A program made the position numbers and the translations under genes. DNA of 64,000 nt. Source: Owenia fusiformis. Its lineage: Eukaryota > Annelida > Polychaeta > Sabellida > Oweniidae. Positions 5,401 to 63,990 of this stretch are shown piece after piece. Numbering within the stretch: position 1 is the stretch's first letter; every line of letters begins with the position of its first letter. The notes beneath the pieces were generated by a model. That model did not search any database and was not told the origin of the DNA. It worked only from the letters and a program-made list of their open reading frames with translations. Where the stretch lies: contig CAIIXF020000004.1 of NCBI GenBank assembly GCA_903813345.2, positions 20,432,477 to 20,496,476 on the forward strand, given 5' to 3'.

Positions 5401-8400
5401 CGTGCCCAATGGTTGTTACATATATAATGTAAAAAATGTATAAACGTTTTAATTTAGTGAATAAAGTTTATTAATAAAAAAGGATAAAAAAGTAACTGTA
5501 TATCCAGCAGCTACATGTATATTATCATCTCAAGTTTGTTTTACAGTTTATACTACATGAAGAAGGGTTCAAATCTTATGGATTTTCCAGTAACAACCTG
5601 TCGACGATTTACTCATTTAGGCGTCATATTATTGTATCAGTGTTGCCACAATTTCATCTTGGGTCAACCCATTGGCATTCAACTAGATATTTAACAGATT
5701 TAATTTCAAATTGAAAATCTTTTTTTAATAATCAATGTACATAAACTTTGATATATATTATATGCTAAATTGATGTAAAACATAAACGTCACATCAATAC
5801 CTGTATGCTAACTTTACTTACTTTTTTTATTTTAGTGGCTCCATCTTGTGAACACACATCTATTCTAAAGTTTTTAAAATATGATGTTTACCTTTACTAT
5901 GGAGGAGAGGGAGTGACAGATACATCACCTTTACTCTCTGAACTCCAATATTTCAACAATGGGGATATGCAACATTTGGATCCGATAAATCTCCATAAGG
6001 TATGTACTCTTCAGGCTTGTCAATGACCCTACAAATGTCTAAGCCAATTAGCTAGTTTTTGGATGTAAATTTAAAAATTACTTTTTTTTATTTTTCAGTT
6101 TAGTTACACATATGGCCATGGAAAAACACGTTTGCTGTTTGCAAGGTTCGTATAAATCAATCTGTAAATTGCTTTAATCCCGGCATCTGCTTTTATTGTG
6201 GCAATTCCCCAATTTTGTGGTATTAAAAGCCAATTAAAAAATCGGCCAGTTGCCAATGGTAATCCCATGATAATTTAAGGAATTTGCATAAAAAGATCTG
6301 CACATTAAATAGTCCATCACAAATATCCTCAAAAAAAGGAAATAAATTGAATTGCTTCAAATTAACTTGAATTGGAATGATTTTACATAAATATGATGAG
6401 GAAATAGTTTCATGATTTGAAGGATTGTTTTTGTATTTCAATATAATTATGTGACCATTAATTATGAATCAACTCCTGGGTAAACTGTCAAGAAAGTGTT
6501 CCTAGTTAAATGTATTTATACTTGTATGGGCCAAAAACTGTGGACCGAAAAGGGTCTTGTTTCTGTAATGTCCATAAACCCTTTCTGTCTCTATTTGATA
6601 CCAATGAATCATACAGATTCTTTTCTAAAACAAAAATGATCAAAAAGGTTCTTTTCAGCTTGAGTACAGTTTTGAAATAGAGATTGCATTGCAAGGATCT
6701 TAACATATACAAGGCCAATAATCTTATCTTAAAATTTTTATTGTTTCAAAAGGGGTTTTCTTCTAAAGGCATGAGCTTTTAAACCTGCCTAGCGCATACA
6801 TAGCTTCACCTCTATATTGTACAAATACTTGTATTTAAAACTATGTAAAATTAACTTTTTAAGATGAGCCCCTACTTTTGGTAGGTTTCATTAAAATTTG
6901 AAATCCAAGCTCATTATCTCATAATTGATTTTCCTAGCCTTTACTTATGTTGTCCACAAATGTTGGCAATATTTTACATGAACAGGTACATGTATTTTAG
7001 GTATCCCAATATAGCCACATATTATACAGTCATAGTAAGGAACCTATTCAACAATGGTACAGGGTGGTCAAGTTATGTGCCAGTTGTGTCAGATGGCTGC
7101 CATACTCAATCTACAGGGTGGTTCAACTGTGGAGAAACATGTAAGTATAGACATAACAATCAGCACAACCGTAGACCAAAGGTAATGTAAAGTTAAAGCA
7201 AATAAATTTATATATTTACCCAAATATTTGATGAATGATAATGAGAATTAGCAAGTTATATATTCTATTCAGTAACATAAGTTTCTTATCTGAAATATTT
7301 AATGAAACTGTCATGTTTAAATACCTTGATAATGGAGATTGCGTCTACCAGGTATTTTACATTTTCCTCAGTATTACCAGAAATGCGTGTTTTAGATTTG
7401 CCACTTTTGAAAATTGACTCTAGTATATGTTGCCCCAAAGATTTCTAAAAACTCTAAATCATGGATAAAATCAAAATATTTAAATGATTTGTAAAAGAGA
7501 GCGACCATATTATCTGTGTGGGTTGTAGATAACCTTGCTGCTAGGATTGTATGTACAGTAGTTGGTGTAATTGTCCTGTTTCTTTGGAGATAACCTTGCT
7601 GCCAGGATTGTATGTACAGTAGTTGGTGTAATTGGCCTGTTTCTTTGTAGATTACCTTGTATCCAGGATTGAATGTACCTGTACAGTAGTTGGTGTAATT
7701 GGCCTGTTTCTTTGTAGATAACCTTGCTGCCACGATTGTGTGTACAGTAGTTGGTGTTATTGGCCTGTTTCTTTGTAGATACTGTAACTTTGCTGCCAGG
7801 ATTGTGTGTACAGTAGTTGGTGTAATTGGCCTGTTTCTTTGTAGATAACCTTGCTGCCAGGACTGTATGTACAGTAGTTGGTGTAATTGGCCTGTTTCTT
7901 TGTAGATAACCTTGCTGCCAGGATATTATGTACAGTAGTTGGTGTAATTGGCCTGTTTCTTTGTAGATAACCTTGCTGCCAGGATATTATGTACAGTAGT
8001 TGGTGTAATTGGCCTGTTTCTTTGTAGATAACCTTGCTGCCAGGATTGTGTGTACAGTAGTTGGTGTAATTGGCCTGTTTCTTTGTAGATAACCTTGCTG
8101 CCAGGATTGTGTGTACAGTAGTAGTTGTAATTGGCCTGTTTCTCTGTAGATAACCTTGCTGCCAGGATTGTGTGTACAGTAGTAGGTGTAATTGGCCTGT
8201 TTCTTTGTAGATAACCTTGCTGCCAGGATTGTGTGTACAGTAGTAGGTGTAATTGGCCTGTTTCTTTGTAGATAACCTTGCTGCCAGGATTGTGTGTACA
8301 GTAGTTGGTGTAATTGGCCTGTTTCTTTGCTTCTTTGGACACAGGTTCTTCAGAACAGGTAATGAACTACACATATATATTTAAACCAAGGAGCACGAAA

Positions 8401-11400
8401 TAACAATCTTTCGGATAAGTGTAAAATCATTTTTTGTCAGGGACATTTATATTTATTGTGACTGATACATTTCTACAATGCAGTAACATCTAAAGATTAA
8501 TTTTTTCAAATGAATCCATTACTTTTTTCATGTATGTACCTTACTTGACCCCTTAATTATGAAAACTTCACACATACATCATAACATTGTGATGATTCGG
8601 TAAAATGGACATGAGAGAAAATTCATTTTCATGTTTTTGTTTCAGAGATGTTCCTGGTTGGTGCTACATCAACTCTCCTAGTCAGCTATATTCTAGTACT
8701 TAAATACTCTACATTTTCTAATATTGGTAAGGAATATGTTGGCTTTGATGAGGGAGGGGTGTATGGGGGCATTTTCTGAAGTAAAATTTGGGTTCATCTC
8801 CTGCATTCTAGTGGCTTAAGCACTAGAAACAAAGCACTAAATATGAGAAGGGCATAGTAGCGAGAGTTTGACATATCAATCCCCCCAATCTGGCAGGTGT
8901 GCACATGTAGCAGTATATGAGTAAAAGCAAACCAACTAATAATAGAGACAAAGTTCAAAGTTATTTGCAATTTTATTATATACACAATTGTTGAACAAAT
9001 GTAAACCAAGCTTTAAATGACTTCTTATACTTTTTAATTTTTATTGCAGGCCAATATATTACAACTGGAGTGAGTGGACTTGTAGGTGGAATTCTGTGGT
9101 TCACATTCTGGTATTTTGTGGGAATACCCGTCCTCTCAGTGCTTCTCATTGGTCTACTTCTGGGCTACCTAATATCAAGCATTGCATTCAACCTAACACC
9201 ACTTGGTATGTAATGGTATTGGTCTAATTCTGGGCTACCTAATATCAAGCATTGCATTCAACCTAACACCACTTGGTATGTAATGGTATTGGTCTAATTC
9301 TGGGCTACCTAATATCAAGCATTGCATTCAACCTAACACCACTTGGTATGTAATGGTATTGGTCTAATTCTGGGCTACCTAATATCAAGCATTGCATTCA
9401 ACCTTACACCACTTGGTACGTAATGTGGAGGTTTTGGATATCATTTTTTACCAAATACCATTCATGTTTTTAATGTATCAAAAATATGTGAGTAATAGAC
9501 ATATGCTAATAATGTTTTATATATTTAATAATGTACAATCTGAAGTTGTATTTTTTACTTGAAATGAATTTTTGGATTAAAAGACGTCAGGCTAATTTAT
9601 TTTAAGTTATTATTAATGAATATTACATTGGTCATTCTCTTTAAGACTCATGAATGCTGATCTAAGTTCCCCTTTGGGCGTAGCAGTGAGGTCTATTGAG
9701 GGAAATAGTGCAAAATGTTTTTTTCTCGAGGGAATATCCTGTACACTGACAGCTTCATGAGGCTCCAGGCTGGGGGATCATGTCAGTGGACAGGATATTC
9801 CAGAAGGGAAAATTTTGTACTACTTTTAAAAGTACTAGTAAACAGTGGTACAGAAATAAACTATTTTAAACTGGAAACTTAATAGAGATGTTTCAAAAGT
9901 ATTATTTTCCTTTTGTATATTAGGAGTACTTGCATTTGTATATCAATTGTATTTTACATTGTATTTTCAGGAGATGTAGACTATTGGGCTACAGAGTTCA
10001 ACTATGGCATGGCCTTCACCTGTGGTATGCTAGTCATAACCACATTTGTATATCAATTGTATTTTACATTGTATTTTCAGGAGATCTAGACTATTGGGCT
10101 ACAGAGTTCAACTATGGCATGGCCTTCACCTGTGGTATCCTAGTCATAACTGCATTTGTATATCAATTGTATTTTACATTGTATTTTAAGGAGATCTAGA
10201 CTATTGGGCTACAGAGTTCAACTATGGTATGGCCTTCACCTGTGGTATCCTAGTCATAACTGCATTTGTATATCAATTGTATTTTACATTGTATTTTCAG
10301 GAGATCTTGACTATTGGGCTACAGAGTTCAACTATGGCATGGCCTTCACCTGTGGTATCCTAGTCATAACTGCATTTGTGTATCAATTGTATTTTACATT
10401 GTATTTTAAGGAGATCTAGACTATTGGGCTACAGAGTTCAACTATGGCATGGCCTTCACCTGTGGTATCCTAGTCATAACTGCATTTGTATATCAATTGT
10501 ATTTTACATTGTATTTTAAGGAGATCTAGACTATTGGGCTACAGAGTTCAACTATGGCATGGCCTTCACCTGTGGTATCCTAGTCATAACTGCATTTGTG
10601 TATCAATTGTATTTTACATTGTATTTTAAGGAGATCTAGACTATTGGGCTACAGAGTTCAACTATGGCATGGCCTTCACCTGTGGTATCCTAGTCATAAC
10701 TGCATTTGTATATCAATTGTATTTTACATTGTATTTTAAGGAGATCTAGACTATTGGGCTACAGAGTTCAACTATGGTATGGCCTTCACCTGTGGTATCC
10801 TAGTCATAACTGCATTTGTATATCAATTGTATTTTACATTGTATTTTCAGGAGATCTTGACTATTGGGCTACAGAGTTCAACTATGGCATGGCCTTCACC
10901 TGTGGTATCCTAGTCATAACTGCATTTGTGTATCAATTGTATTTTACATTGTATTTTAAGGAGATCTAGACTATTGGGCTACAGAGTTCAACTATGGCAT
11001 GGCCTTCACCTGTGGTATCCTAGTCATAACTGCATTTGTATATCAATTGTATTTTACATTGTATTTTAAGGAGATCTAGACTATTGGGCTACAGAGTTCA
11101 ACTATGGCATGGCCTTCACCTGTGGTATCCTAGTCATAACTGCATTTGTGTATCAATTGTATTTTACATTGTATTTTAAGGAGATCTAGACTATTGGGCT
11201 ACAGAGTTCAACTATGGCATGGCCTTCACCTGTGGTATGCTAGTCATAACTGCATTTGTATATCAATTGTATTTTACATTGTATTTTCAGGAGATCTTGA
11301 CTATTGGGCTACAGAGTTCAACTATGGCATGGCCTTCACATGTGGTATCCTAGTCATAACTGCATTTGTATATCAATTGTATTTTACATTGTATTTTCAG

Positions 11401-13443
11401 GAGATCTTGACTATTGGGCTACAGAGTTCAACTATGGCATGGCCTTCACATGTGGTATCCTAGTCATAACTGCATTTGTATATCAATTGTATTTTACATT
11501 GTATTTTCAGGAGATCTTGACTATTGGGCTACAGAGTTCAACTATGGCATGGCCTTCACATGTGGTATCCTAGTCATAACTGCATTTGTATATCAATTGT
11601 ATTTTACATTGTATTTTCAGTAGATCTTGACTATTGGGCTACAGAGTTCAACTATGGCATGGCCTTCACCTGTGGTATGCTAGTCATAACTGCATTTGTA
11701 TATCTTTGTGTTTTACATTGTATTTTCAGGAGATCTAGACTATTGGGCTACAGAGTTCAACTATGGAATGGCATTCACATGTGGTATGCTAGTCATAACT
11801 GCATTTGTATATCTTTGTGTTTTACATTGCATTTTCAGGAGATCTAGACTATTGGGCTACAGAGTTCAACTATGGCATGGCCTTCACCTGTGGTATGCTA
11901 GTCATAACTGCATTTGTATATCTTTGTGTTTTACATTGCATTTTCAGGAGATCTAGACTATTGGGCTACAGAGTTCAACTATGGCATGGCCTTCACCTGT
12001 GGTATGCTAGTCATAACTGCATTAGTATATCTTTGTGTTTTACATTGTATTTTCAGGAGATCTAGACTATTGGGCTACAGAGTTCAACTATGGAATGGCA
12101 TTCACATGTGGTATCCTAGTTGTACCTGTGTTGTTACTGGCATTTACCAAACAGGTGATAACCTTTACACATGACATATGCTACATGTAATTCTTACTTA
12201 AAGGCTATATTTGATATCTGAATAATATGCAGCCCAATAACCACAAAGCTACATTTTCTGAAGATAGCTATATGATTGCAATGATATTAATTTCACATTT
12301 AGCATCAATCTACATCTACATTTGAGGTCATTAAAATCCTGTTTCAAACCATAAATGATCACAATTTTCATATACTTGATATCATGCTTATTTCAGTTGA
12401 ACATAATTGCAACTAGTATCCTGGGCAGTTTTGCAGTAGTGGTTGCTATTGATGTGTATATTGGCAGCTATATGGCCTATATTATACAAGACTCCATCAG
12501 AAAGGCAACTATTGAGGACTTCAGACTTGTCCACACCAAACCACCCTTCCAGACAAGAGGTAAAACAAAACCACTTAGATAAGATTCATTCCACTTGTGT
12601 AATGATAGCATGAAAAATTTACTGTAATGCTTTACCTTGATGCTATTTTCAAATTTATCTGAAAAAATATGATAAATCCATCAGAAAGGCAACCAATAGG
12701 CTTAGCAGGGTTAAAAATGAGATTGATTGAGCAGCTGAACTGATGTGAAAGTCTATAAAATTGTCCATATCATCCAAATTAAAGTTATTAATAAGCATTA
12801 TCCAGATTACTGGAGTTACTTACCAATCACCATGGTTGATGTACAAAATTCGTTCAATATTGATGTACCTACGATTTCAACTAATCTAAGATCAAGTATA
12901 CATGTACTTACATTTAAATATGTATTCCAAATATTTCGTCATGCAAATTTTAGAATGTTCCAATCCTAAACAAGTACAAGGAAATGTTTAAAAACCGGAG
13001 AAATTATATTGTTACGATTTGAAGTGAATGGTATACAGTAGAAAAGTTAAAATAATGATCAAGTTATCATTCTTTTTTCAGATATGATACTGTGTGTCAT
13101 TTGGGTGTTACTTACAATCTGTGGAATATCCTTTCAAAATTGGCGGGAAAAAGACAGAAAACCCTTCCCAGATTGCCCAAATACAATCAGAAAACTGAAA
13201 GCACGTCGGAGACTTGCAGAAATGAATACAGAAGGTGCCCCTACTCCCAGAACTCCTCTTCTGGCAGACCAGCAAGCTAGTGCAAGGTCTTATGGGATAG
13301 ATCCAGGGTCAAGGTCATATGGTTCACCAGGAACAGGTGCAGGTGCTTACCCTGCTAGAACTGTAGACACTAGTGGTTTTGTTGATGCAGGTAACACAGC
13401 TACAGATAGACAGATTGATAGATATGCCAGTCAACCAACATAA
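2466..13443 (+). CDS. TM7SF3: TM7SF3-like seven-transmembrane protein, 13 coding exons
   Basis: Exons placed at 2466-2526, 4038-4179, 4577-4749, 4886-5014, 5836-5999, 6099-6145, 7001-7140, 8272-8358, 8646-8726, 9050-9205, 12057-12154, 12397-12559 and 13082-13443. All have GT-AG junctions with compatible phases. They join to 1803 nt, 600 residues plus stop, close to the human length (about 570). Residues 1-17 are a hydrophobic signal peptide. Residues 18 to about 285 are a Cys- and N-glycosylation-site-bearing extracellular region. From about residue 290 there are seven hydrophobic segments, starting with GVIGLFLCFFGHRFF and including a DUF4203-like Gly-rich segment (ILWFTFWYFVGIPVL). The cytoplasmic tail has a PRTPLLADQ motif, like the RTPLL tail of vertebrate TM7SF3. 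The family is linked to survival and stress responses. The start is the first ATG of the signal peptide. Three introns carry arrays made of their own exon edges (see repeats). A polyadenylation-like AATAAA lies at 13735. Family call is from motif recognition. Confidence 0.85.
2594..2749. mobile_element. Palindromic MITE in TM7SF3 intron 1
   Basis: A near-perfect 156 bp palindrome. CACAGGAAGTTGTATCA at the left is the complement of the right end, and the central arms share CCCCACTCTCAGAACAG. The loop is about 10 nt. The transcript would form a long hairpin. Confidence 0.75.
3105..3378. repeat. Diverged inverted repeat in TM7SF3 intron 1
   Basis: Arms of about 70 bp at 3105-3178 and 3310-3378 share GGGCATTAAAC and AGCAGTTTCAAA in opposite orientation. 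The spacer repeats a short CATCCCG/CGTCCCGC motif. Confidence 0.55.
5264..5430 (+). mobile_element. tRNA-derived SINE in TM7SF3 intron 4
   Basis: The head resembles a tRNA: an A-box-like TGGCTCATGGGTAGAAC and a B box GAGTTCGATTCC at about 5324-5335, then a non-tRNA body. The acceptor and D-stem pairing is imperfect and no 3' CCA-proximal end is seen, so it is called a SINE and not a functional tRNA gene. A relative lies at 1-150. Confidence 0.7.
7529..8332 (+). repeat. Array A: 61 bp x13 exon-8 acceptor-edge tandem repeat in TM7SF3
   Basis: Unit starts are 7529, 7590, 7651, 7718, 7779, 7845, 7906, 7967, 8028, 8089, 8150, 8211 and 8272. Spacing is 61 bp except for two indel-bearing units of 67 and 66. 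Each unit is the first 58 nt of exon 8 followed by TAG. The exon's own CTGTTTCTTTG therefore serves as a pyrimidine tract in front of TAG and creates a complete 3' splice site. The copy at 8272 is the one that runs on into the rest of the exon and keeps the frame open. Entry at 7529 hits a stop after one unit. Confidence 0.93.
9147..9420 (+). repeat. Array B: 70 bp x4 exon-10 donor-edge tandem repeat in TM7SF3
   Basis: The last 55 nt of exon 10 plus 15 nt of intron (gtatgtaatggtatt) occur four times, with donors at 9206, 9276, 9346 and 9416. The last donor is changed to gtacgt. The units are nearly identical, so the array is young. Use of any donor but the first reads GGT ATG TAA, so only 9206 preserves the protein. 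ATTGG is present at both breakpoints. Confidence 0.93.
9931..12121 (+). repeat. Array C: 110 bp x20 exon-11 acceptor-edge tandem repeat in TM7SF3
   Basis: Twenty exon-edge copies start at 9971, then every 110 bp to 11621, then at 11730, 11839, 11948 and 12057 (109 bp steps). Each unit is the first 64 nt of exon 11 plus 46 nt of upstream intron ending in TTTTCAG or TTTTAAG. All 20 keep an AG acceptor: 12 CAG and 8 AAG. Only the copy at 12057 continues into the complete exon ending at 12154. Reading from an earlier acceptor meets a stop at the beginning of the next unit, because 110 is not a multiple of three. A higher-order repeat is also visible: 10191-10740 and 10741-11290 are matching five-unit blocks. 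Confidence 0.95.
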
Positions 13444-15851
13444 TGACCTTTATCAACACAGGCCTATAAGTCAACTATCTTAAAGGCAGAATCAGATCTA
13501 TAGGGGGTGACAAAATTACAAGCAACGTGCATAATTGACCTACCAATCTATTCCTTACAATATCAAATACAATATCTCCCAAAAGATTCACAATATGTTA
13601 TAAATAGGTGAAGTTATTAATGATTCAAAGTGCAAAAATGGGTGAAAAATGTTTAAATTCTCCCAAATAATAAGAATGGTAACCATTCTTATAGAAAAAT
13701 AATACATTATTGTAAAAGTCTTTCGTTTTCCTTGAATAAAGTATGCACTTTTGTGATATTTAGAAAATAGACATGACAAGGAATGACATGAGCCAAAAAT
13801 ATTCTAAAATTGAAACAATTTTTTGTTAAGCATGCTCGCTATCTCTGATTCTCTCTTTAATGACATATTGACTTAAACCAATATTAGTCATTGAAATTAG
13901 GTAATATATGCCAGTCTTCCGATAATTGACTGAAATCAATATGAGTCATTTAAATTAGGCAATATATGCCAGATTATAAGACCAAAACTCGTGATTCAAA
14001 TTCTGAAGTGAGAAAGAAAGAGAAATTGCGACTGTTTAAATTTTGAATTGTGTACACGGTTATGATGCCCGCATATGGGGAATATTGGAATTGCATTCTA
14101 GGATCCAATACAAGTGAATAGCTAAATGGAGGGTAAAATGTGTTTTAACTGCTATACATCTAAGGTATGGGATATATTTAAAAAGGCTCAACATCACCAG
14201 TGTGCAATAGTTTAAAACTCTTCTGCAAATCAAGCACGATGGTCTGCACGACCATTCATGAATACTTTTGGTTGACGTTAACATTACCAAGGAGGATTGG
14301 CTCCCAGGATCAAAACTCGATATTTTTCAACAATGAAAACCTCCAAACGTCGTTATTTTCTGAAATTATAACCGACTATAAATTCAAAATAAACATATCA
14401 AAAGATTCAAACCTATATCATCATCATTTCTTGTGAGTTTTGGAATTTTTCGTAAGTAACTAATGGAAGTAACACCAAATTCACATTCAAATGTTGAAGT
14501 GAACAAAATGGCGGTTGTTTGGATTCAAATTTTGTATCACAACTTGTCCATATATGGGACAGAATATCGATGTTGCACTCTGGGAGCCAATCCTTGCATT
14601 ACCAAATATACTATGCCGTATTATGTCTTAATGAATCACAGAATGTTTAAGAAGAATTGATAAACCATGATTGTGTGGAGGAATAAATCGCGTGGAGGGT
14701 GAATTTGACATGCCATGTTGCCAATGCAAGACTTAATACCTTAGAAGTGTAGTAGCTCATTTTCCCATCATTTACCCATCCGTTATCGTATTTATTTGCC
14801 ATAACATTTGCTTAAAATCAAGAATTGTAAAATAATTTTTTCTACCGTATTGATATGCCGATAAATATTTCATTTTTACTCAATAGGGTAAGCTACCATA
14901 TAGACATAGATTTACAGAAATTTTGTTCAAACTGTATTTAAAAGATATGTTTGACATGCTTTTGGTGACAACTATAGTTTATTTTCAAAATCTTTAAGCA
15001 TATACAACAAAATGATACATACATGATTATAAATTAATTATGGAGAACAAAATATTTTAGAAAAGACTGTATGCATGATGGATTTCTCTTTACTCTGTAT
15101 GAATAGAAAAACTCCCTACTATATCTGCCCGCCCGAAGCGGGACGTAAAGCTATATTTGCCCGCTGATGAAAATATATAGGTTTTTTTATTACAAACACT
15201 GCTTTATGTACCTGTAACACGTCCAAGTATAGGATAAATAGAGATTATCTTAATGACATATTGACTTAAACCAATATTAGTCATTTAAATTAGGTAATAT
15301 ATGCCAGTCTTCCGATAATTGACTGAAATCAATATTATGTCTTAATGAATCACAGAATGTTTAAGAAGAATTGATAAACCATGATTTTGTGGAGGAATAA
15401 ATCGCGTGGAGGGTGAATTTGACATGCCATGTTGCCAATGCAAGACTTAATACCTTAGAAGTGTAGTAGCTCTTATCGTATTTATTTGCCATAACATTTG
15501 CTTAAAATCAAGAATTGTAAAATAATTTTTTTCTACCGTATTGATATGCCGATAAACATTTAATTTTTACTCAATAGGGTAAGCTACCATATAGACATAG
15601 ATGTACAGAAATTTTGTTCAAACTGTATTTAAAAGATATGTTTGACATGCTTTTGGTGACAACTATAGTTTATTTTCAAAATCTTTAAGCATATACAACA
15701 AAATGATACATACATGATTATAAATTAATTATGAAGAACAAAATAAGAAATAAAATCTGTGATAAATATGCTAAACAAACTCAATGTGCAATATGTAAGT
15801 GTACAATTAACTGAACTAAGCTGAGTGAAAATATTTCTTAATATAGATTAA
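13444..15851. repeat. Intergenic DNA with direct duplication, TM7SF3 3' flank
   Basis: After the TM7SF3 3' UTR (AATAAA at 13735) no gene is seen. A block at about 14624-15055 is repeated directly at 15337-15745 with few differences. A smaller block at 13860-13950 recurs at 15252-15335. A segment at 15110-15245 (CGGGACGTAAA, GCCCGCTGATGAAAATATA) recurs inverted at 18470-18605. Confidence 0.7.
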
Positions 15852-24000: not shown

Positions 24001-27000
24001 AGCATTTGCTAGTGTTGCGGAAACTATTGTTGCTGTTACAATTGCCCCTATGAGCTGGGTGCAAATTGAATTTGAACAAAGTTGAGTATGATGATAGTAG
24101 TCATATCATATTCTCAACTAGGTACATCAATCACCTGCTTTGAGAATACTGTGTATTAAGACTTACGTGTGTTTATGAATCAAAGTTAATTAAATAATTT
24201 GATGAAATTTAAAATCGATTGTCATCAAAGATGATCTTTTCAACTACATGTACTTACCTGACGTGTTTGTGCCATTGATAACTTGAAAGCTTGTTGACAC
24301 TCGGTAGTTAGTTTTCGCCTGAAATTTAGAATAGAAATTGAGAATCACAACTCTCATGTTTGCTCCAAATTGGTAAACTAGTGATATATTTGGCTTTACG
24401 TGTACAATATGCCAGGAATTTGAGACATTGCGAAAACAATTAAGGGGATAGTCCAGCTTTATGCTTTTTGTTGTACGTATTTCAAAAATGCACTCACCGA
24501 ACGAAACGTCGCCTCAACTAAATTATCAGGTAGCATGTTGCTGAAAATACAAATCCAGTCATTATCTTCACTTGCAGACACAGACAGATGGTTAAATAAT
24601 ATGTAGCTGTTAATTCTACATCTGAGCGATAAATGTTGCACGTCCCTCTAAAAGTTTGGCAGTTCAAATTTAAGTCAATTTTCATACTTCAAATCTCAAA
24701 CTTGAGAGGATTGCATATATGAGTTCTAGGGGTAATTAAAAAGACACATAGCCAACCAAGTGACATTCATGCACGCTCTCTCGAATTATTGAGCAACTTT
24801 TTCTAATTTCGATTACCATCAATCCCATCAATAGAGCCTCAAAAAGACGGCAAATGGCCACCGGAACGCGCAAGGTTGCTCATCAAGGAGTACCAAGGCA
24901 GTAGACGCAAACAAATCGTAAGAAGCAATATCATTTAAATCATCACTCTGACAATGGACATATCTAAGTTCGAATTCAACTATGGAAGGCATTTTATTTT
25001 TCCTCTAACATTGGTAGAACTTAATTTCAGAACTAAACATTCACACTAAAACTCCAAATGGCATGATTTTTAGGATCATCACAAGCATACATCTCGACTT
25101 TTTCGTGCAGTACCATATTGTTTTCCCAAGGTGAACATGGTGACACCAACCAATTCAGTTTATGTACATTTGTAAGTAGGGTTGATGGACACTTGAAGAT
25201 CTATGTGTCAATACCATAAATATTAAGTTGTTTGTATTCGAGACAAATCTAAATACAATATGGAGAATGCTCATTACATATTAACAGACATTCATGATTT
25301 TCAGAATTATCCTAGGTAGAATTTAAACTTTTTATGTCTTTAAACGATAAGATACGATGCCATGTTTGGAATTCAGCAAATGAAATAAAGGAATCTTTTT
25401 CTGACAGGGTAATCACTAAGAAAGAACTCACTAATGAAGAACCTCAGAACATGTTTGTGTTTTTCCTTTTTGTATTTTCAATTGACATTTTTATGTCAGA
25501 CAAAATTGGTGACATATTAGCTATATTGAAGTCTCGAGCTCCAACTTTTTTGTAGACAGTATTCGGCGTTCGGTGGTTGGTGTTCGGCGGTGGGCGTCTG
25601 TAACAATTGGCAAGTGGTGGAACTTTGTATGTTAATGTCTCGTTTCAATTTATCATTATTATTGCATAATATTTTCATTTTAATCAATATCATTGTGATA
25701 ATACGAAAATGAATGTCTTGCTATTCCTTATGATGCTATTTATAGGTTCTCACTCGCCAACTTGAAATCAATATTATGAAATTGATGAGAGTAATCAATT
25801 TCACTAATCTGAAAATAGCCATACCTCTGTTGTAGCATTAAAAATGAATATTGTTTGAAATACTGTGTTTTGATTGGCTGTTTGATATAGCATGCCTATG
25901 AGATATGCATGAGCTTCTTCAAAATTAAGTTAATAAATTAGATCAACATTGTTTATACCTTGCCTACTTGCGATAACCCGATTATTTTGAGCTATAAAGT
26001 TCATTAAAAAGGCACAGTGAACTTATTGCGCAGTGCTTTGATTTACGATTACGTCATAAATGTAAGTTCAGAAAATACTTAATAATATTGTAATGTGATT
26101 GGTAGAGCTCTAGTTGCTATTAGGTTTTTGCTGTTCAAATGATATGACAAATGTAAACATCTGAGAGAGAGACGGATGAGGTCAAAATATAGTACTTTAT
26201 ATGAGTATTTATTAAGAGAACTTAAGTGATTAGATTAGATGCTTGTAAATTAGAAACCTCAATAGTGAATAGTGAACCTATTGTATTTATCAAAAAGTAA
26301 TGATAACTTTCATGACATGCTAGAACTATTTCCTGGTAAATTATCTATATATAGTTCAAATGTCATATTCTGATACTCATTACATGGTAACTGGTCAAGT
26401 CGTACCCAAGACAACTCGTACCCAAGTCAAGTCGTACCCAAGACAACTCGTACCCAAGTCAAGTCGTACCCAAGACAACTCGTACCCAAGACAACTCGTA
26501 CCCAAGACAACTTGTACCCAAGTATATCTTTTGTTTTGAATCAAGTGTTGGGCTGGGAATGGGTATAGATATACATATACATATTATAACGGTTACATAC
26601 AGTTCAGAATAGTTTGAAGTATGTAGAAGAGTTTTTGAAATTCATCTTGAAATATGGTATTATCAAAAATATAAAGATTTTCGCCTATTTCTTATTAAAC
26701 AGATAATCTATTTAGGATTTCATATTATCAGATTAAAGAATGATAATTCTAAGAAGTCACCTTCATAAAATTAAGCAATAAAAAATATTCTAAATAATAT
26801 GAATATCAAATATTATTTTGATACTATTCATACATGATATAATACACTTTGCATGCATGCGTTCAAATATAATCCAATTAGTTCAAAATGGAAAAGATTA
26901 AAAGTTTAAAGTTCCCTTATTAATTTTCTCTGAATGCACTAAGCTATAAATTAATTGTTTGATTCATTTGTTGAAAAGTTACTGTTTTAATTATATTCAT

Positions 27001-29488
27001 TTATATGTATGTATTACAAAAAAGTTGAGAACAAGCCCTTCAAAGCACTTCAAATGTAATCCAAGTTAAAACAAAATGCTTTGCTTAATCCATTGAGAAA
27101 AAATGTCTTCTAAATTCAGAAAAAATATTGAGGCACATTATAACATTAAACATTTTGACACAGACTCAATTTGTTTTCTTATATGCACCCATAATACAGA
27201 AAATAAACGTGGGTACGAGTTGTCTTGGGTACCAGTTGACTTGGGTACGAGTTGTCTTGGGTACAAGTTGTCTTGGGTACGAGTTGTCTTGGGTACGAGT
27301 TGACTAGGAAGCCATTACATCTCTCTGACTTCAACTAGAAAGAAGCTAAAAGCAGGCCATGATTTCTCATGATGCAAATATTAGGTTTGCCATCTTTCAC
27401 CCGAAGAGGTTAATAGTAATGTACAAATAGGGAATACTCATATAGCCTAGTACATTAAGTAGATGACGCTCTCTTTTAAGTCATACAGGCAAAAACAAAC
27501 TATTAGGAATTAGTAATATGCAGGGACATTGCTTTATATGGTTGTCGCCAATTCAGAGTATCTAAAGAAGGAGAAATGTTGGATAGTTCCTATTCAACTC
27601 GAATAACGAAGCACACATTAAGCGCCTCTATATTTGAAAAACAAAACAATCTTCCTAAATGTTAAACACTAACTTGGGCACATCCCTTATCATAAATCAG
27701 GATCACAGTGACTTTACACATAAAGCGTTCATTATTTGAATAATGGGAGAGTCAGAAGAATCAATACATTTTCTTATATCACTATTATAATACGGTTACT
27801 ATTAGTTTAGCAATGTGATGCATACACTGAAGTGAAAGAACTGTTTTTGGGAGTTTACAGTTCTTTGGTTAATAAAGTGTGATTTGCATAGACAGAATAG
27901 AAATGCAAATTCCACTGAAAAGTTTAATATGGTATGTTGGTCTCTTTTGTAAATATTGTCAATTAAAATAAAGAATTTGAAAAAGCGTTAATACATCCTC
28001 TTACGAAACTGCATGCATTAGCTAGATAATTGTATTGAATCATTAATAGGCCTATGCATGTCGCTTGAAATTTATGTTGGCCAAATAAACTATTAAAATG
28101 TCAACGATGGATACCCCTTCGAAAAGTTTGGCCAAACATATCCCATATCGGATTTCACATTAACGCCTGTATGTTTTGCAGTTAAAACAATCATCTGATT
28201 TTAAAGGAATGTTATAAAAACCCTTGGACCTGCACCTTCGACCTTCAGCTTCGACCTACAGGGTATCCAAAAAGCGGGCCAAAAAGAAAGTTATAAAAAC
28301 CCTTCGACCTGCACCTTTGCCTTTTCTTATGAAAATTGTCAAAGTCCAAAAATATTTCTTTGAAAAACGACTAAGTCCAACTTCACATAGATTATGAAAT
28401 TGAACGGAGCTCTGTCCTCTGTCCTCCTGTCGAAAGCTATAGCTGTCATCTCTTGAGTTTACATCGGCGAAATACTTTATATGCCTGGTGACGTCATCAC
28501 TTTTCGGACAAGATTTGAAAGTTAAATAACAAGTTATTGACGCCATATCCCGTTTTAATATTGATCACACAACAAGACTATGAACTTCCATTTAAACTAC
28601 CCGATTGACTACCCGATCAACATCAACAGAATCTTAATTTGATAACATGAAAACGCTATTTCACCCCTGTAACTATACCTAGAGTACTGCAAACGTTGCT
28701 ACAATTTAAGATCTTAACGATCTCACCTGTGAACCACAAATCAAGTGACTCTTGCGTGGTCTGAGATCGGCAAAAATAGCTTCTATAATATTTTCTTTTT
28801 TGGACACCCTGTAAGTCGAAGGTGAAGGTCGAAGGCGCAGGTCGAAGGTCAAAGGGTTTTTATAACATTCCGATTTTAAACATGTTATACTAATATAGAA
28901 CGAGTTGCACTAATAGAATATCAGGATTGCCAAACTTGTAGAGGGGTTTATGATGAAGGTTAAATAGAATGCTTACTATACAAGATCAAGTGCAGTGTCA
29001 GCGGCATTGACGGAATCGTCTGTTTGTGTTCCAGTAGCATTTGTAGTGCTTCTGTCCAGTTCCCCAGGTTTAATGGAAACAACAAGCACAATGCCAAGAA
29101 TAACAGCAATAATGGTGGTGGAAAAGTAGTAGATAACTGCTCTGCCCCCGAGCTTTCCAGACGCATTTGCGTCCAAAGAAGCTAACCCCGTGATGAGAGA
29201 TGAAACGATGAGGGGAAGAATCATCATCCTGAGCATGCGCAGCAACAAGTCACCAGGAAGAGAGAAGTATCGGAGCTGGGTCGTAGTCATCGGTGGATTT
29301 AGTGAGCGAAGCGCAATTCCCATTACGATCCCCAACACCATTCCCAGTATTAGGAAAATGAGCAGAATGTTATTTTTCAAAATGTCTAAGCATATCCGCC
29401 CTTTACTTTTCTTTGCTTTCTTGGTGGGTTCCTCATCAATGTCCAGTTCAAGTTCCATATCGGGCGGTGATCTCAATTCCCCATCCAT
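21080..29488 (-). CDS. SLC1A (EAAT): SLC1-family excitatory amino acid (glutamate) transporter, 8 coding exons
   Basis: Exons in transcription order: 29488-28977, 24540-24498, 24318-24258, 23879-23720, 23478-23245, 23031-22837, 21974-21840 and 21344-21080. They join to 1605 nt, 534 residues plus stop, which is typical for the family (about 520-570). The protein would couple uptake of glutamate/aspartate to Na+ and H+ entry and K+ exit at the plasma membrane. Visible signatures are a Ser-rich HP1 loop ([11 protein letters not shown], about 335-345), NMDGT of TM7 (370-374), the HP2 segment [15 protein letters not shown], and TM8 [16 protein letters not shown] with Arg451. That Arg binds the acidic side chain in EAATs and is absent from neutral-amino-acid ASCTs. 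An N-glycosylated loop (NGTNTS) follows TM4. The tail ends TTL, a class I PDZ-ligand pattern. Intron 1 (4.4 kb) and the intron before exon 7 carry transposon derivatives. The subtype (EAAT1, 2 or 3) is not assigned. Confidence 0.92.
22012..22590. mobile_element. PIF/Harbinger-type MITE, copy 2, in EAAT intron 6
   Basis: A 579 bp element related over its whole length to 15852-16434, but inverted. Left end CCCTACTATCACACCAAACT, right end AGTTTGGTGTGATAGGGGGG. TTA flanks both sides (22009-22011 and 22591-22593). It lies between exons 21840-21974 and 22837-23031. Confidence 0.82.
26386..27312. mobile_element. Foldback-type element with tandem-repeat termini in EAAT intron 1
   Basis: The left terminus (26397-26522) is a tandem run of CGTACCCAAGACAACT-type units. 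The right terminus (27209-27306) is its inverse (GGGTACGAGTTGTCTTG units). CATTACAT lies immediately outside both ends (26378-26385 and 27313-27320), an 8 bp target-site duplication. The AT-rich middle of about 680 bp has no coding capacity. Confidence 0.82.
28206..28871. mobile_element. Mutator-like MITE in EAAT intron 1
   Basis: The ends GGAATGTTATAAAAACCCTT and its inverse near 28850-28871 belong to arms of about 60 bp with internal CTTCGACCT repetition. GATTTTAAA occurs at 28197-28205 and 28872-28880, a 9 bp target-site duplication typical of Mutator-like elements. The left arm shows a second, partial copy of the terminal motif at about 28290-28318. The 96-codon minus frame inside looks non-genic. 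Confidence 0.78.
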
Positions 29489-51410: not shown

Positions 51411-54400
51411 ATGCATGTTCCACGGGCATTGATTTATTTGTGCGTTTTAATTGGACTGGGTCTGACTATATATGGTATGTATCTGTTTTGATATCCATCC
51501 CCGTCAAAGTTCGGAAAGTCTTATTCCGAACGACCATAAGAATTTTTTTTTTCAAAGCTATTCTTCAGTCATACATCACAAATTAGATGAACTTCGCAAT
51601 GCTCATTATAGTTAATAAATATTAATCTTCACTGGACACACATAGATATTGCGATATGAATCATGCATTCAAAAATCGCAGCGATACTGTTGGTCATGGA
51701 ATATTGGGCATTTCACAAAAATCAGTATATTGTCTTTGCTGTAAGAATTCTAAATGTTTGAATTGCATGAAAATATGCAAGAGTGGTCATTCTTAAATGT
51801 CCAAACTGTGATTGTTTTAATATGTCCAAACTGTGATTGTTTTAATATGTCCAAACTGTGATTAATGTTTTAAAATGTAACCTATATTAGGTTAGAGAAT
51901 GCGCTCTTTAACTAGAATACTCTCCGAGAATTCAATGGATCCCGACGGATTCATTACTGGGAAATGAAACATATTGTAAATTACAAATGTGTTCAATTTA
52001 ATTGTTCTGACCTGTCTTTGCATATTTGGAAAATCTCCATCCATTAATGTTTGAGGGGGCATTGAAAAAGAGCAAATCAATGGTAAATTGGTTCCAATTT
52101 AATAGGAGCAACGATGATATTTGCGTTATTTTAGTATCATGTTAAAATATTGTTAAAACATCATAATATTTACAGCTGAGATTGTTACAAATATTGACGA
52201 GAGGGAGTGTGGATTCCCCGCCATTGATCCTTTACAAATATCCAAGCTTTCAAGAATAGTTGGAGGTTCCGTAGTAAAGCCGCATTCTTGGCCATGGCAA
52301 GTGGGCTTGTGCTACTCATCAAACATAGCAGAAGATGTATTTTGCGGAGGAACACTGATCAGTGAAACTTGGATTGTAACAGCTGCTCATTGCATCGATT
52401 TGTAAGTTTTTGTAGAAAGTACACAATCAATTACCCGTAACCTCTACAAATCTCAGCTTCGTTTCTTTATGAACATGATATTGAGGGCGTTTGTATTTAT
52501 TGAACGACGGCCTCGTTCTGGACGAACATAAATGTTAAGGGTGGACGTTAAACAGTCATCGTCAAATGACATCTTGGCCCAGTCAAAGCATTGCGCCTAG
52601 TCTTCAAACAACTTACATGTATTTTCACGGTGTCAAACCATGGCCAGGCCCCGCTGACATCGAGGGCAACAAGCTCGTGTTAGAAGTGGGGCCTCGAGAG
52701 ATCTAATAAAAGTGAAATATAAATAAACTTTTCTATGGAACTTTAGTAAGTGATTTACCATATTCTTTAATTCTGCATAGTCACCGTGATTTTGTTAAAA
52801 CAATAACATTTTTAAAGGCAAAGATACCTGCACGTGTTTCACATAAAGAGCATCAAGTGCCTGAAAAATACAAAAACGACACAAGAATGAACCCTTGAAG
52901 TGGGAAAGTTTCATAAATCCGTTTTAACCTTGAAAACTCTTCAACGATGACATTCTTCAATTTACTGCTTTCAGTCTGACGGAAAGTGAGCTACTTCGTG
53001 TAATAATTGTAGTTGGAGCACATGATATGACAGCGTCTGTCGTCGATGAAGACGAACGCCAACTGATTAATGTCCAAAGGGTGATATATCACCCACGCTA
53101 TGATATTGGCTATGAACTGAACTATGACATAGCTCTTATTGAGCTTAATACATCAGCAGTGCTTGGGGAGAATGTAGCAGTGGCGTGTCTTCCTATTACT
53201 TCACTGACAAATGGTCAACAATCGTACGTCACCGGATGGGGCTCAACAGGTTAGGATATTTCACATAAAATATCACAAATGATTATGATTAAATCATCAT
53301 TGCCTCTTGAATGCAAAATACTACACTGCTCCTTTGGTAATACTATTCTAGTATGAATGAATTAAATCAATTCTTTTACATGCTGCAGCCTCTGGTGGGG
53401 GCAAAGTAACTCGACTACGCGAAGTGATGGTGCCAATAATAGATAGAACACATTGCATCGCCGAGTCGAACTATACCGCCAATGATGATCTGTCCATAAC
53501 AATGGTCTGTGCTGGTAGTATAGTTGGTGGCATAGACACCTGTCAGGTATGACAATAGCACAAACCTTCAGCAGGTCAGTTTGTAGTTCGAGGGGAACAC
53601 TGGGCAGGATGGTCTTCTTATAAGAGGCGGAAATAGGTGGAAAAACCTTCATGCATAAATGGACCATTTATCCCCCTTTACGTCTTGGTCAATCGTGTCC
53701 TTGGTTTCCCTAGTCAAGTAGCCGTATGAACTTTGATGTTAAGCATAGACCCGAATGATAAGCTAATTATTTTCGGATTCAACCGCCGGCTGTCGACTGA
53801 TTGTTAAATCTACAATTTATTTCAAACTAATTCAAATATTAATGAAATAATGGCAGGTATTAATCACATTTAAATGAGTTGGCTATAAATGAGTAGATTA
53901 AATCGCCAGCCGGCAGTTGAATTTGCGAATTCTACCTTAAAAGCCTTGGTTGAGTTTAAAAGCTTTCGGCACCTGAGAATTACACTAATCTTGTTATTAA
54001 TCAATCATAAGATACATACATTCGTTTATAATTCGTAAATATACTACATCTCTTCATGCATTTGCGAACCGGAAGTTACCATTTGAAAGCGTAATTCAAA
54101 CAAGCTTCAGCACGCGGTCAAAAGACGGAGGAATCCTGTTGCCAAACCTTTTGGGGAAAACAATACGAATTTAAGAACATGTATTTGGTCCTACAGGGTG
54201 ACTCTGGCGGTCCACTGGTGACGCAGATGAGCCACAATTCATCACTATGGCAGCTGAGTGGTGTCATAAGCTGGGGTATTGGTTGCGGAGACCCTTCTTA
54301 CCCCGGGGTGTATACCGATGTCATCTTATTCAACAATTGGATAAAGGGAATAATTTCAAGTGAGCATATTTGCTTTTATATTTTTATAACTTTAGAGTTT

Positions 54401-59327: not shown

Positions 59328-61646
59328 TATATCAAGATATTTTGCAAAAAGTCATTTTAAGCCAAAATTATAAGTGTAAATTGTATTCTTAACATGACTA
59401 TCGATAAATTGGACCACGTTCATAAATTCAGAACAAATTATGCATTTACTGTCTCTGTTTAATAAAAACGCACCATTCATTTTTCAAAACTGGCTCCAAG
59501 TTGGAGCCAGTTTACAAATCAGTTCGCTTCATTTAACACAAAATATTTAAGGACAATCTAGCAACTTTATCAACATATATGAATTCAAAGTTCTATACGG
59601 AGTGGTCCGAAATGTGGAACATTTCAATCAAATATTGCAATTTATTTCTCCACTAAAATACATCATATCTTGACCGATCATGTTGTGAATCGGTTTTGCA
59701 AAATTCACTACGGCGCTGAATGAATATCCGGAATACGACTATAGGTCATTTGATTATTCATTGCTTTAGAGAACTACCCAAAGGAAAGTCGATTTCTATA
59801 CGCAATGTGCAAATGGATACCACGGGTCTTTCACACCACTAAAACCTACCAATTAGGAAAGGATACTTTTCAAAACACGTGAGTCAATGGCACTTAACTA
59901 GCAAGTGCATCTACGGCTTGGATTCTACTACATAGCCGTAGGGACCGGGGGTTCGATGGGTTCGGACGAACCCCCGGTTGGTATTTCTCCCAAAAAAATA
60001 TTTGTGGAAAAATTCATTGCAATAACCAGAAACATATATTCAATTTATATGACCAGTAGGAAAAAATAGTAAAGGAAGAGGTTTGAGTATTGGCAAATAT
60101 CCCTATGGTCATAATGAATCATTCTTAGGTGTAACATGAAGAATAGAATGTCATAATACTTTGGAAAATATTAAAGTGCTGGGGCACACATAAGCTGAGA
60201 TAGGGATCATTTCATGATTCTCGTCATTAATGATAAAATCAGCGGAACTGTGATAGAAAATGGAATGTTTTCAAAGTTTTTTATTTTCAATTCAAAGAAA
60301 GCACAACAAATAAGTTTTTCAGCATTATTTGTTCTTTATTTGTTGCAAGGCATTGAAATTTAAGAGAGATGTTTAATGTTAGAGCCTACAGAGCACAGTG
60401 GATATTTTGTTATTTCAATTTTTTTTTTTAAATTTCAGCCTATGTTTCATTCCATTACAGTACTGGCGATAGCCTCAACATTTTGTGGGTCACATGACCC
60501 AGTTCAATCAAAAAAGTGGGTCAAACTTGGAAAATGTGGGTCAAATTGAATTATGAAAATATAGCGTCATTTTCGGATAATCTTAAGTACAAAAATAAAT
60601 GTGCTGCAATGAGACTTCATGTCTTAAAGGCTGAAAATCAGCTTAGGCCAAAAGGTTGGGTGAAACATAAATCAAATCAATGGATAATGACCAAATAGAA
60701 GTGCGGTGCAAACTAGGGGGTCTGGGGCATGCCACTCCCCCCGAAAATTTTGAAATTTAGACCCTCTCTGGTGCATTCTGAGCATATCTCAGCATAAAAT
60801 TTCCAATGATAATATTTATATAAACAATAAGAAAAATAAAAAGATTGTGTTGTTAGAAAACTTTATATTTATTTTTTCAGATAAATTATGCAGATTTTTG
60901 AACTTTTTTTGAAAACATTTAACCATAAAATAAAATCAGTATTTTCCTGTCACTAATATCAAACTGTATTTGAGCAATTGATCTCAATAAGCAGATCAAT
61001 ACATAATTAATTGTAATTAGTTTTTTCTTAATTACTTTGTTTTTCAATGTTGCCCCTTGTTCCTCCTCACTCTGAAGTAAATAAATAAACTCAATATTCC
61101 TTTCTGGCACATTATCAATCTCAATGAAATATAAGGATCAACATTCAATAGTTTTATATGTATTTTTTACTTGTAATATTTTATTTGTTTTCAAATGTTG
61201 CCCTTTTTGCTTCCTCACTGTGATGTAAGATAATGCCAAGAAGATCAATTATATTAATTAAACAGTTTGTTTTCAAGTTTATGTGTAATTGCTAATAATA
61301 GTATCCATTGAAAGTTGGCAGGACAGTGATAAAGGTTTTTTGCTACTGACCCATTAATCTCAAAGCAATGACGTTTTGGTGAGAGGTCAATCAAAATCGT
61401 GGTCGAATTACAGTAAGATAATTATCTCAGTGTTTCTCTAAAACACTGCTGATTATCTGCCTATTATACTTAGATTTTGTCTTCACAAGGTAGGCCAATT
61501 TATATTCTTTCGTTTGATATGTTTAACTTAATTGAAAGCCGGAGATTTTCGTCTGGATCGGTAAGATATCGGTCAAAACCTTTTTTTCTTGTGTATTGCT
61601 ATTCTTCCCGGGAAATAGCGTTAGTCTGTCTACCTGAGGATCAAAG

Positions 61647-62204
61647 TTTATCGCATCCTACGACCCCTTTAGATTGTGGTCGTAGGCCCGTTTCATTCGT
61701 AAGCCTGTGTTTCTACAATGTCGGAGAATGAACTATGCATTGCACACATAAATGACCTACCTCGATACATTCCTGAGTATTTTAGAATTCTTTTCATATA
61801 GTTGAATCGCAAATTGTATGGGTTTATCGGCAGAACGAAGATATTTTCGTTTTTGATAGCAATATTTGCGTGTAATATTTAACTTATTACAACCGTCAAA
61901 TTCCTCCATTCAGTTCCCGGCATGCACCAGTCATAAGGGAAATCCCTGGGGAATTCCCCTTCCGACATTTTGAAAATTGCTGAGATATTTCCGATGTAAA
62001 AACTAAAATCTCTTCGTTCTGCCGATAAACCCATACAATTGGCGATCTAACAACATAAAAAGAATTTTAAAATACTCTGGAATGTATCGAGGTAAGTCAT
62101 TTAATAGTGCAATGCGTAGTTCATTCTCCGACATTGTAGAAAGACAGGCTTACGAATGAAACGGGCCTACGACCACAATCTAAAGGGGTCGTAGGATGCG
62201 ATAA
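61647..62204. mobile_element. Long-hairpin MITE, probably hAT-like
   Basis: Arms of about 200 bp are reverse complements (TTATCGCATCCTACGACC at the ends; TCTGCCGATAAACCCATAC inside), with a loop of about 130 bp. GATCAAAG flanks both ends (61639-61646 and 62205-62212), an 8 bp target-site duplication. Confidence 0.82.
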
Positions 62205-62965
62205 GATCAAAGTGCGTGAATGAAACGCAATTAGTTGTGAATTCTGCGTCAGACTTGATCAAATGTGCGTAAAACGATAATGATTAATACAATACTATTT
62301 GTCATCTGTCACTTCTATCGTCAGTACCAATTGAGAGTATTCGTGCAGCCATTACGACTTTTATTGTGCGCCATGATTAAATAAGTATTACATTCTTCAA
62401 AAATATTTGCTTTTGAATATACTAGTATTCAGAAACTAACTGTAAGTTCATGAGGTCATTATGAACTCCTCTATTACAAAATGAAATGGCAGATAAAATT
62501 CTTTTGATTTGGATTCTTTTCAAAAATCATCTAAAAGTGTGGGAATAGCATGCCAGAATTTGACATATCTTTGAATGATGAATTGGGAATGACGATTTTT
62601 CAATGGTAGCTTGTTAAAAAATATGTTCCTTAGAGATATGTTGTAATTTGCCCTTTACAAAAGTTGTCTCAATGTATGCTAACCCTTGATTTGGATTTCA
62701 TTGAACAATTAAACAATTGTTATATAAAATGTATGACTTTGCTACCAGAATTCAATATCTTTCAGTAAAAGATTCACCAAAAACTATTTCAATATAGAAA
62801 ATCAAATTGTTGCCAAACTTTTGGAGGGGTGTAAATTGTATGTACAAAAAATACTTTTATGTGAGGTACACCGATGAAGGGGGAGATTTGTGGATACATA
62901 AAAAATCGGACCCCTGGTCACCAATTGCTCGCTACGCCACTGTCTAGTGAGCGCTTTAATTCAAA

Positions 62966-63349
62966 ATGGGGTTTGATGACCTGTTACCAGAATTAGGAGG
63001 ATTCGGACGATATCAGAAAGTTTCCATAATCTCATTTGTATTATTCTATGCTGCAACTACATGGCAGTATAATATTACAGTAATCATTGCCGCTGATATG
63101 CAACATTGGTGTCATGTGCCAGAGTTAGCCCATCTCAACCACACAACATTTATGAACATAGCTGTTCCCCTCGAGGAAAACCAGTTTGGGGAAGCCGTGT
63201 ACAGTCAATGCAGGGTCTATGATCTCAACTACTCCAGTATCACAGACGATGATGTGACTAACTGGATCCCTAATGGCAACACGAGTACAAGGAAATGCAA
63301 CGGATATGTCTACGATACGAGCAGGTTCACGTCAACACTTGTAAGCCAG
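62966..63349 (+). CDS. SLC22A: SLC22 organic ion/carnitine transporter, first exon (gene continues beyond window)
   Basis: The first coding exon encodes 128 residues and ends at a phase-0 donor (CAG|gtaaac). It opens with GFDDLLPELGGFGRYQ, the conserved SLC22 N-terminus before TM1. TM1 follows, and then the family's large extracellular loop with Cys residues (HWCHVPEL, QCRVYDL, KCNGYVYD) and several N-glycosylation sites. The final YDTSRFTSTLVSQ is the usual sequence just before the FDLVC motif, which should open the next exon, outside the window. The product would be a 12-TM major-facilitator transporter for organic cations, anions or zwitterions. The substrate class cannot be decided from this exon. 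Its donor edge is tandemly repeated downstream. Confidence 0.9.
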
Positions 63350-63990
63350 GTAAACAACTTATATATGATATAAGCAGGTACACATCAACACTTGTAAGCC
63401 AGGTAAACATTTTACATATGATACTAGTAGGTTCACGTCAACACTCGTAAGCCAGGTAAACAACTTATATGTGATACTAGGTTCACATTAACATAGATTT
63501 AGATTTATGAACTTTTTACACATACATACCCTTAAAGGGTCAAGTGTACACAAAGTAAACACTAATTTTACAATATATCAAAAAAAAAACAATATACGAG
63601 GGTTGATCCAAAAGTTCCGAACCGCTCGCTCTAAAAATCCCAATACTTCACAAAAAATTGTTCACACCTGGCCAAAACCACCCCACATATAGTAGCTCCA
63701 CTTTGTGTAAAAACAACCAATAAATTTGACCAGCAACACAGGTATCTAGTTACCACAGCAATATGACAACAGGGTATGTGGAGAAAGAGCACGACATATT
63801 GTAGAGGTGGAAAAACGTTATCGCACCGATATTTATAAGAAAGGTAAACAACTTATATATGATAATGATAGGTACATCGACACTTGTAAGCATTATTAAC
63901 AGTTCATATATTATAATAGTAGGACGTACATCGACTCATGAAGCAAGGTGAACAACTTAACTCGCATATGATTGTAGCAGAACTATGCTG
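63311..63990 (+). repeat. Array E: 53 bp donor-edge tandem repeat after SLC22 exon 1, split by a mariner end
   Basis: The last 39 nt of SLC22 exon 1 plus about 14 nt of intron recur at 53 bp spacing. Donors are at 63350, 63403 and 63456, with a decaying fourth copy to about 63499. The same motif reappears at 63840-63990, with donor-like sites near 63844 and 63948 (about two units apart). The intervening DNA begins with a mariner-type terminus at 63595. The array probably continues past the window end. Confidence 0.85.
63595..63838 (+). mobile_element. Truncated mariner-like end inserted in Array E
   Basis: Starts TACGAGGGTTGATCCAAAAG, like the termini of the element at 58242. No matching right terminus is seen before Array E-like sequence resumes at about 63840, so the copy is truncated or rearranged. 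Confidence 0.6.

Follow-up and report, generated by a model that had tools for sequence, protein, structure and literature searches.

What kind of event fills an intron with copies of the edge of the neighbouring exon? The question is raised by a stretch of 64,000 nucleotides from the annelid Owenia fusiformis (hereafter the window), for which the original prediction, made from the sequence alone, had described five tandem arrays, each seeded by an exon edge together with its splice site, in three unrelated genes, and had seen in them a tendency or process of this genome that amplifies exon edges. The assembly to which the window belongs (GCA_903813345.2) consists of 498 Mb in 525 contigs, at least 12 of which are chromosome-size.

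Tandem arrays in the window and their host genes

Five tandem arrays were recovered by TRF in the window (61 bp in 13 copies, 70 bp in 4, 110 bp in 20, 54 bp in 39 and 53 bp in 3), and reading of the sequence, combined with decomposition into units whose boundaries were partly hand-set, places each of them over one splice junction (Table 1). The host genes are a TM7SF3-like gene (A1 to A3), a class C GPCR (A4) and an SLC22-like gene (A5). Three-frame translations of positions 4000-13898 gave no match to Pfam, and the exons of the TM7SF3-like gene were therefore joined; the resulting product of 600 aa matches TM7S3_TM198 with E = 1.3e-34. In this gene the final copy of A1 continues into exon 8 (8272-8358), copy 1 of A2 is the 3' end of exon 10 (9050-9205), and the final copy of A3 is the beginning of exon 11 (12057-12154), such that a single intron of 2851 bp carries A2 at one end and A3 at the other. 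The class C GPCR gene encodes ANF_receptor, NCD3G and 7tm_3 domains in one frame (about 41438-39467), with the body-proximal donor of A4 at 38475. Exon 1 of the SLC22-like gene was identified by its resemblance to SLC22A6 chains, having no match in Pfam. Three copies of A5 are clear, up to position 63480; these are followed by other sequence and then by degenerate copies, recognized by eye, at 63843-63990. The segment 63590-63840, starting with GAGGGTTGATCCAAAAGTTCCGAACC, which separates the two parts, resembles an element of the mariner type.

The description of five arrays, each over one exon edge and distributed among three genes, is thus borne out by TRF, reading, unit decomposition, exon joining and domain matches. 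The make-up of the units, given originally as 39-64 nt of coding sequence plus 3-46 nt of intron, needs only a small adjustment, the measured values being 36-64 and 3-46 nt. When the A3 unit was used as a DNA query of the genome, the 21 matches listed were all within A3, with no dispersed copies among them.

Table 1. Genes and exon-edge arrays of the window, and edge arrays in sampled loci elsewhere in the genome.
Feature	Window position	Strand	Description	Basis or sample
A1	7523-8329	+	acceptor-side; 61-bp unit = 58 nt exon + 3 nt intron (TAG); about 13 copies	TRF, decomposition, exon joining
A2	9148-9425	+	donor-side; 70-bp unit = 58 nt exon + 12 nt intron; 4 copies	TRF, decomposition, exon joining
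A3	9931-12120	+	acceptor-side; 109-110-bp unit = 64 nt exon + 46 nt intron; 20 copies	TRF, decomposition, exon joining
A4	36431-38528	-	donor-side, class C GPCR gene; 54-bp unit = about 48 nt exon + 6 nt intron; about 39 copies	TRF, decomposition
A5	63314-63990	+	donor-side, SLC22-like exon 1; 53-bp unit = 36 nt exon + 17 nt intron	TRF, decomposition
TM7SF3-like gene	2466-13443	+	13 exons, CDS 600 aa	exon joining
Class C GPCR (mGluR-like) gene	34700-41500	-	includes exon carrying A4; last exon from about 35109	last exon by eye
SLC22-like exon 1	62966-63349	+	128 aa	matches SLC22A6 chains, best E 1.8e-6
L076			donor, 101 bp	first sample
L082			acceptor, 88 bp	first sample
L094			acceptor 86 bp and donor 71 bp, both edges	first sample
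L102			donor, 54 bp; interrupted by other sequence	first sample
L114			acceptor, 51 bp	first sample
L133			acceptor, 20 bp; weaker case	first sample
L148			donor, 45 bp	second sample
L150			acceptor, 118 bp	second sample
L171			acceptor 81 bp and donor 54 bp, both edges	second sample
L175			acceptor, 123 bp	second sample
L166			acceptor, 47 bp, ends at AG; weaker case, scored as non-edge by scripts	second sample

Edge arrays elsewhere in the genome

The genome-wide comparison that had been suggested as a check of the presumed tendency was carried out on a sample of 166 loci, each consisting of an exon found by a family search plus 450 bp on either side: 107 in a first sample, 41 in a second, and 18 in a kinesin sample. 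The loci taken and the family matches from which they come are 59 of 85 for Helicase_C, 42 of 144 for Pkinase, 6 of 25 for ABC, 13 of 22 for AAA, 28 of 73 for UCH, and 18 of 144 for kinesin. Loci were required to lie on chromosome-size contigs, with a match of 99-400 bp (120-400 bp for kinases), an open frame of up to 160 aa, and a spacing of at least 5 kb; as exceptions to this rule, a few near-identical paralogues were omitted and one eligible kinase match on contig C5 was missed. For kinesins, rule and criterion were fixed before retrieval, and 18 of the 20 chosen loci were used, the other two places going to two pieces of a kinesin array described below. The best 30 Pkinase loci were exploratory: TRF was run on all 30 and some were inspected, and they enter no count.

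Each locus contributes two presumed edges, 332 altogether, with first and last exons included. The family match holds a stop codon, and so overruns its exon, in 28/107, 17/41 and 5/18 loci of the three samples respectively. Edges were set by hand from reading in nine loci with arrays (L076, L082, L094, L102, L114, L148, L150, L171, L175); for the others a simple splice score was used in the per-sample test (where alone L166 was also hand-set), and the pooled test used the splice score for the first sample and the plain match limits for the second and third.

Judged by reading, 13 of the 332 presumed edges bear an array (95% interval 2.1-6.6%), in 11 of the 166 loci; two of the 13 are weak (L133 and L166), and without them the count is 11/332. 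The 13 arrays are spread over 7 of the 12 large contigs, and none of the 18 kinesin loci has an edge array. Arrays in L161 and L177 look like edges of neighbouring exons and are outside the count. Also outside the sampling rule are a USP exon edge with a period of 150 bp and about 11 copies, found in the family match list, and a kinesin exon edge with 18 matches at a spacing of 158-159 bp, both ends of which were read.

Two candidates were rejected. L078 (181 bp in 2 copies) was flagged by the scripts, but has no splice site at the edge and looks like a transposon-type helicase. L126 proved to contain two complete, diverged GSK3-like kinase exons at about 270-590 in gene orientation, some 178 bp apart and possibly mutually exclusive. 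Among the exploratory kinase loci, L017, whose gene is on the minus strand, carries at 667-1472 a 23-bp unit, GTAAGTAATG..., repeated 35 times from the exon donor onward and composed almost wholly of donor-side intron. Short-period intronic arrays with TTTCAG-like acceptor motifs, for which no exon edge was identified, are found in L025 (2010-2210) and L127 (803-1127), and are perhaps a decayed or micro form.

To compare these counts with chance, a seed of one period was placed at random in 10,000 simulations, and seeds falling wholly within the exon were discarded. With strict limits (period at least 40, at least 2.5 copies, score at least 200), which were set after the first and second samples had been seen, 10 of 15 arrays include a sampled edge where 2.12 were expected, and 0 of 10,000 simulations reached 10; no array of the kinesin sample passes these limits. 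With looser limits the pooled values are 11/29 versus 4.5 expected (p = 0.003) with L078 left out, and 12/30 versus 4.9 (p = 0.001) with L078 included; taken separately, the first sample yields 7/16 versus 2.6 (p = 0.007, L078 included), and the second a borderline 5/13 versus 2.2 (p = 0.056). A genome-wide tendency to carry tandem arrays over exon edges is therefore supported, by sampling that is moderate and partly post hoc: of the original proposal of a tendency or process, the data support the first half (13/332 edges; 10/15 arrays versus 2.1 expected), and a dedicated process would be a less likely cause.

Splicing and variation among the copies

The TM7SF3-like frame is intact over its 600 aa when the exons are joined at the body-proximal splice sites, which is the one combination that was assembled. 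None of the unit lengths 61, 70 and 110 bp in this gene is divisible by 3, and splicing at most of the other copies would consequently lead to a frameshift. Judging from the sequence, normal splicing probably uses the copy adjoining the exon body.

Variation was studied in 18 arrays (5 in the window and 13 elsewhere; 9 at donors and 9 at acceptors), which contain 131 copies in addition to the body copy. In the final counts the exon part of the unit was 26 nt for L114 and 127 nt for L179, and earlier boundaries had given the same conclusions. Relative to the body copy, the extra copies show differences at 101/2492 first, 102/2527 second and 195/2474 third codon positions, and at 199/2214 intron positions. 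When instead the extra copies are compared with each other, in arrays with at least 3 of them, the sites that vary are 35/271, 34/273 and 43/268 for the three codon positions and 62/283 for the intron, and the difference between positions 1+2 and position 3 is not significant (p = 0.20). The codon-position pattern of the differences from the body copy, together with the flat variation among the extra copies, points to a constrained body copy and to extra copies that are largely free and behave much like intron. The extra copies show somewhat more variation in their intron columns than in their coding columns (62/283 versus 112/812); given this difference, they may be under some constraint or may undergo conversion by the body copy.

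The splice signal had been stated to be present in every copy; among the scorable extra copies of the 18 arrays the AG is intact in 61/62 and the GT in 56/68. These dinucleotides are retained no better than random dinucleotides of the same units (p = 0.25 for acceptors, p = 0.74 for donors), and the decoy splice sites are thus intact-looking without visible maintenance. In A3 the base before AG is A instead of C in 8 of 19 extra copies. This array, the only one examined in this respect, displays concerted evolution with distinct boundary copies: its units fall into a body-proximal group of 109 bp and a distal group of 110 bp, and neighbouring copies are slightly more similar (0.975 at lag 1, 0.958 at lag 8).

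Comparison with mirages and other known systems

The term mirage was reportedly introduced by Canestro in 2002. Mirages are minisatellite-like tandem duplications over an intron-exon boundary in amphioxus genes (PMC3087553), known from Adh3, the globins BflGb6 and BflGb9, TnC and PGBD5 (PMC3087553, PMC3902484; TnC as cited in the latter). Their units measure 150-160 and 157 bp in the globins, 10-72 bp in Adh3, and 60 and 108 bp (imperfect) in PGBD5; splicing is undisturbed, many but not all units have AG or GT, length is unstable, and mirages have been proposed as an origin of new introns (PMC3087553, PMC3902484). The Owenia arrays resemble them in that the unit lies over one exon-intron boundary, either donor or acceptor (9 and 9 of the 18 arrays), and in that AG or GT is present in many copies and not in all (61/62 and 56/68). 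In addition, the grouping of 109- and 110-bp units in A3 is like the boundary exclusion reported for BflGb6 (PMC3087553). The Owenia arrays are unlike those of amphioxus in their annelid host, and in having been counted across several gene families (13/332 presumed edges); length polymorphism and somatic instability are reported for the amphioxus mirages, whereas a single assembly underlies the present data. The arrays, for which the original prediction knew of no named class, thus match mirages on the structural points that were tested, and would extend mirages to another phylum.

In the literature examined, mirages have so far been a curiosity of amphioxus genes, and a search judged from titles and abstract openings, which covered few subscription papers, led us to recognize no report of mirages outside amphioxus. 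Noteworthy here are the apparent jump to another phylum and the frequency, about 4% of the sampled exon edges. At such a frequency in an annelid, the arrays suggest that a convergent or widespread force acts on the length of introns. They also constitute a natural experiment in splice-site choice by the spliceosome, with up to dozens of near-identical decoys to an intron, and a substrate on which the conversion of mirages into new introns, as has been proposed, can be tested.

A related system is the gain of introns by tandem genomic duplication of an exon segment containing AGGT (PMC3443670). It has in common with the arrays a tandem duplication of coding sequence that is rendered harmless by splicing; in that system, however, both new sites derive from the duplicated AGGT and the intron is new, whereas in Owenia an intron that was already present grows at one of its ends. 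Each unit of the 18 arrays bears a single splice site, donor or acceptor according to the array, next to an exon edge that was there before, and the arrays do not correspond to intron gain of the AGGT type. In tandem exon duplication with mutually exclusive exons, whole exons are duplicated with both splice sites. There too, repeated coding sequence lies beside its source, as apparently in L126, but the Owenia arrays copy one edge only.

Origin of the arrays

We consider it probable (roughly 0.8) that the arrays are minisatellites of the mirage type, in which an edge duplication shielded by splicing was followed by expansion and homogenization through exchange. The scheme would start with a short tandem duplication that by chance takes in one exon edge and its splice signal. 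If splicing kept to the copy adjacent to the exon body, the extra copy would become intron and the change would therefore be close to neutral, while duplications internal to the exon would presumably be purged for the most part. Unequal exchange, conversion or slippage could then expand and homogenize the array, whose decoy sites, being unselected, would later decay. Random duplication and shielding alone, however, predict neither an excess over purely intronic arrays nor donor units that are rich in exon sequence.

The latter feature is recognized in the composition of the units. The mean share of intron is 0.20 in the 9 donor arrays (KS versus uniform, p = 1.2e-4) and 0.35 in the 9 acceptor arrays (p = 0.15); the test excludes L017, L133 and L166, whose units are short or consist mainly of intron, and when they are added the donor value becomes p = 0.001. 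The need for a complete splice signal sets a minimum to the intron share, and simple neutrality sets no maximum. Exon-rich donor units could possibly result from a duplication biased toward exons with exon-internal events purged, or possibly from exchange between haplotypes, if this works mostly where exons form conserved islands.

These observations bear on the alternative that a dedicated or coupled process prefers exon edges, in the form of repair linked to transcription, R-loops or splicing, or of recombination between very different haplotypes within exon islands. It would account for the excess of arrays at edges, for the dominance of exon sequence in donor-side units, for the two exons, in L094 and L171, that bear arrays at both edges, and for the greater homogeneity of the edge arrays, whose mean TRF match is 94.1% (11 arrays) versus 86.1% for non-edge arrays (14; p = 0.008), the latter value becoming 87.7% (18; p = 0.02) when four doubtful arrays are counted as non-edge. 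Composition is nevertheless the only mechanistic mark that was examined, and much of the same picture would be given by purging of exon-internal events combined with a general exon bias of duplication; we regard such a process as rather unlikely. Similarly doubtful is its wider form, according to which an active process tied to splice junctions or conserved exon islands would amplify edges in the annelid lineage as in amphioxus, with thousands of arrays that lengthen introns and provide splice sites as raw material for new introns and exons.

Mirage-type duplication must also be weighed against the view that ordinary intronic minisatellites overlap edges by chance and were noticed through one rich window. 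The window was in fact chosen for its arrays, the kinesin loci with an edge array are 0/18, the strict limits are post hoc, and of the 53 arrays with a period of at least 15 in the first 148 loci, 39 are non-edge. Yet 13 of these 53 are at an edge versus 5.6 expected (p = 0.002), the strict comparison is 10/15 versus 2.1, and two large extra arrays, those of the USP (150 bp, 11 copies) and of the kinesin (18 matches at 158-159 bp), surfaced in match lists; chance overlap is accordingly quite improbable.

There is very little to suggest that the copies are functional alternative exon ends yielding protein variants: unit length is a multiple of 3 in 9 of the 18 arrays, a proportion without significance (p = 0.11, one-sided), and most copies retain AG or GT, but the other half of the units shift the frame, the extra copies have no significant codon-position bias, and their splice dinucleotides are not preferentially retained. 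An artefact of assembly, to which tandem repeats are prone, is hardly credible given that copies differ among themselves and are broken by other sequence (A5, L102), and that the 13 arrays of the count are distributed over 7 large contigs out of 12.

Other features of the sequence

Several features were seen in passing. In the window, a 39-bp tandem array at 1132-1498 has related sequence in inverted orientation at 1783-1860 (by eye), and a 16-bp repeat, CAACTCGTACCCAAGA, at 26394-26523 has a near reverse complement at 27210-27302, about 700 bp apart (TRF); both pairs are like foldback elements. Two long inverted stretches stand face to face at 61550-62200 (by eye), and are perhaps a palindromic transposon. 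By eye also, 28976-29490 on the minus strand resembles exon 1 of an SLC1-type transporter, and 54300-54360 on the plus strand resembles the last exon of a trypsin-like protease. In the genome, kinase matches with identical scores occur in pairs (C10:36714897 and 36804954; C67 and C489), which suggests recent duplication or uncollapsed haplotypes. The chromosome-size contigs, about 12, are fewer than the chromosomes of lancelets. GFP as a marker of lancelets and FMRFamide as a marker of protostomes drew no match in the genome, and as their controls were equally silent, neither result is informative. Finally, the profile Eryth_link_C, which we take to represent the annelid erythrocruorin linker family, has four clustered matches in the genome, three of which are above the cut-off on their own.
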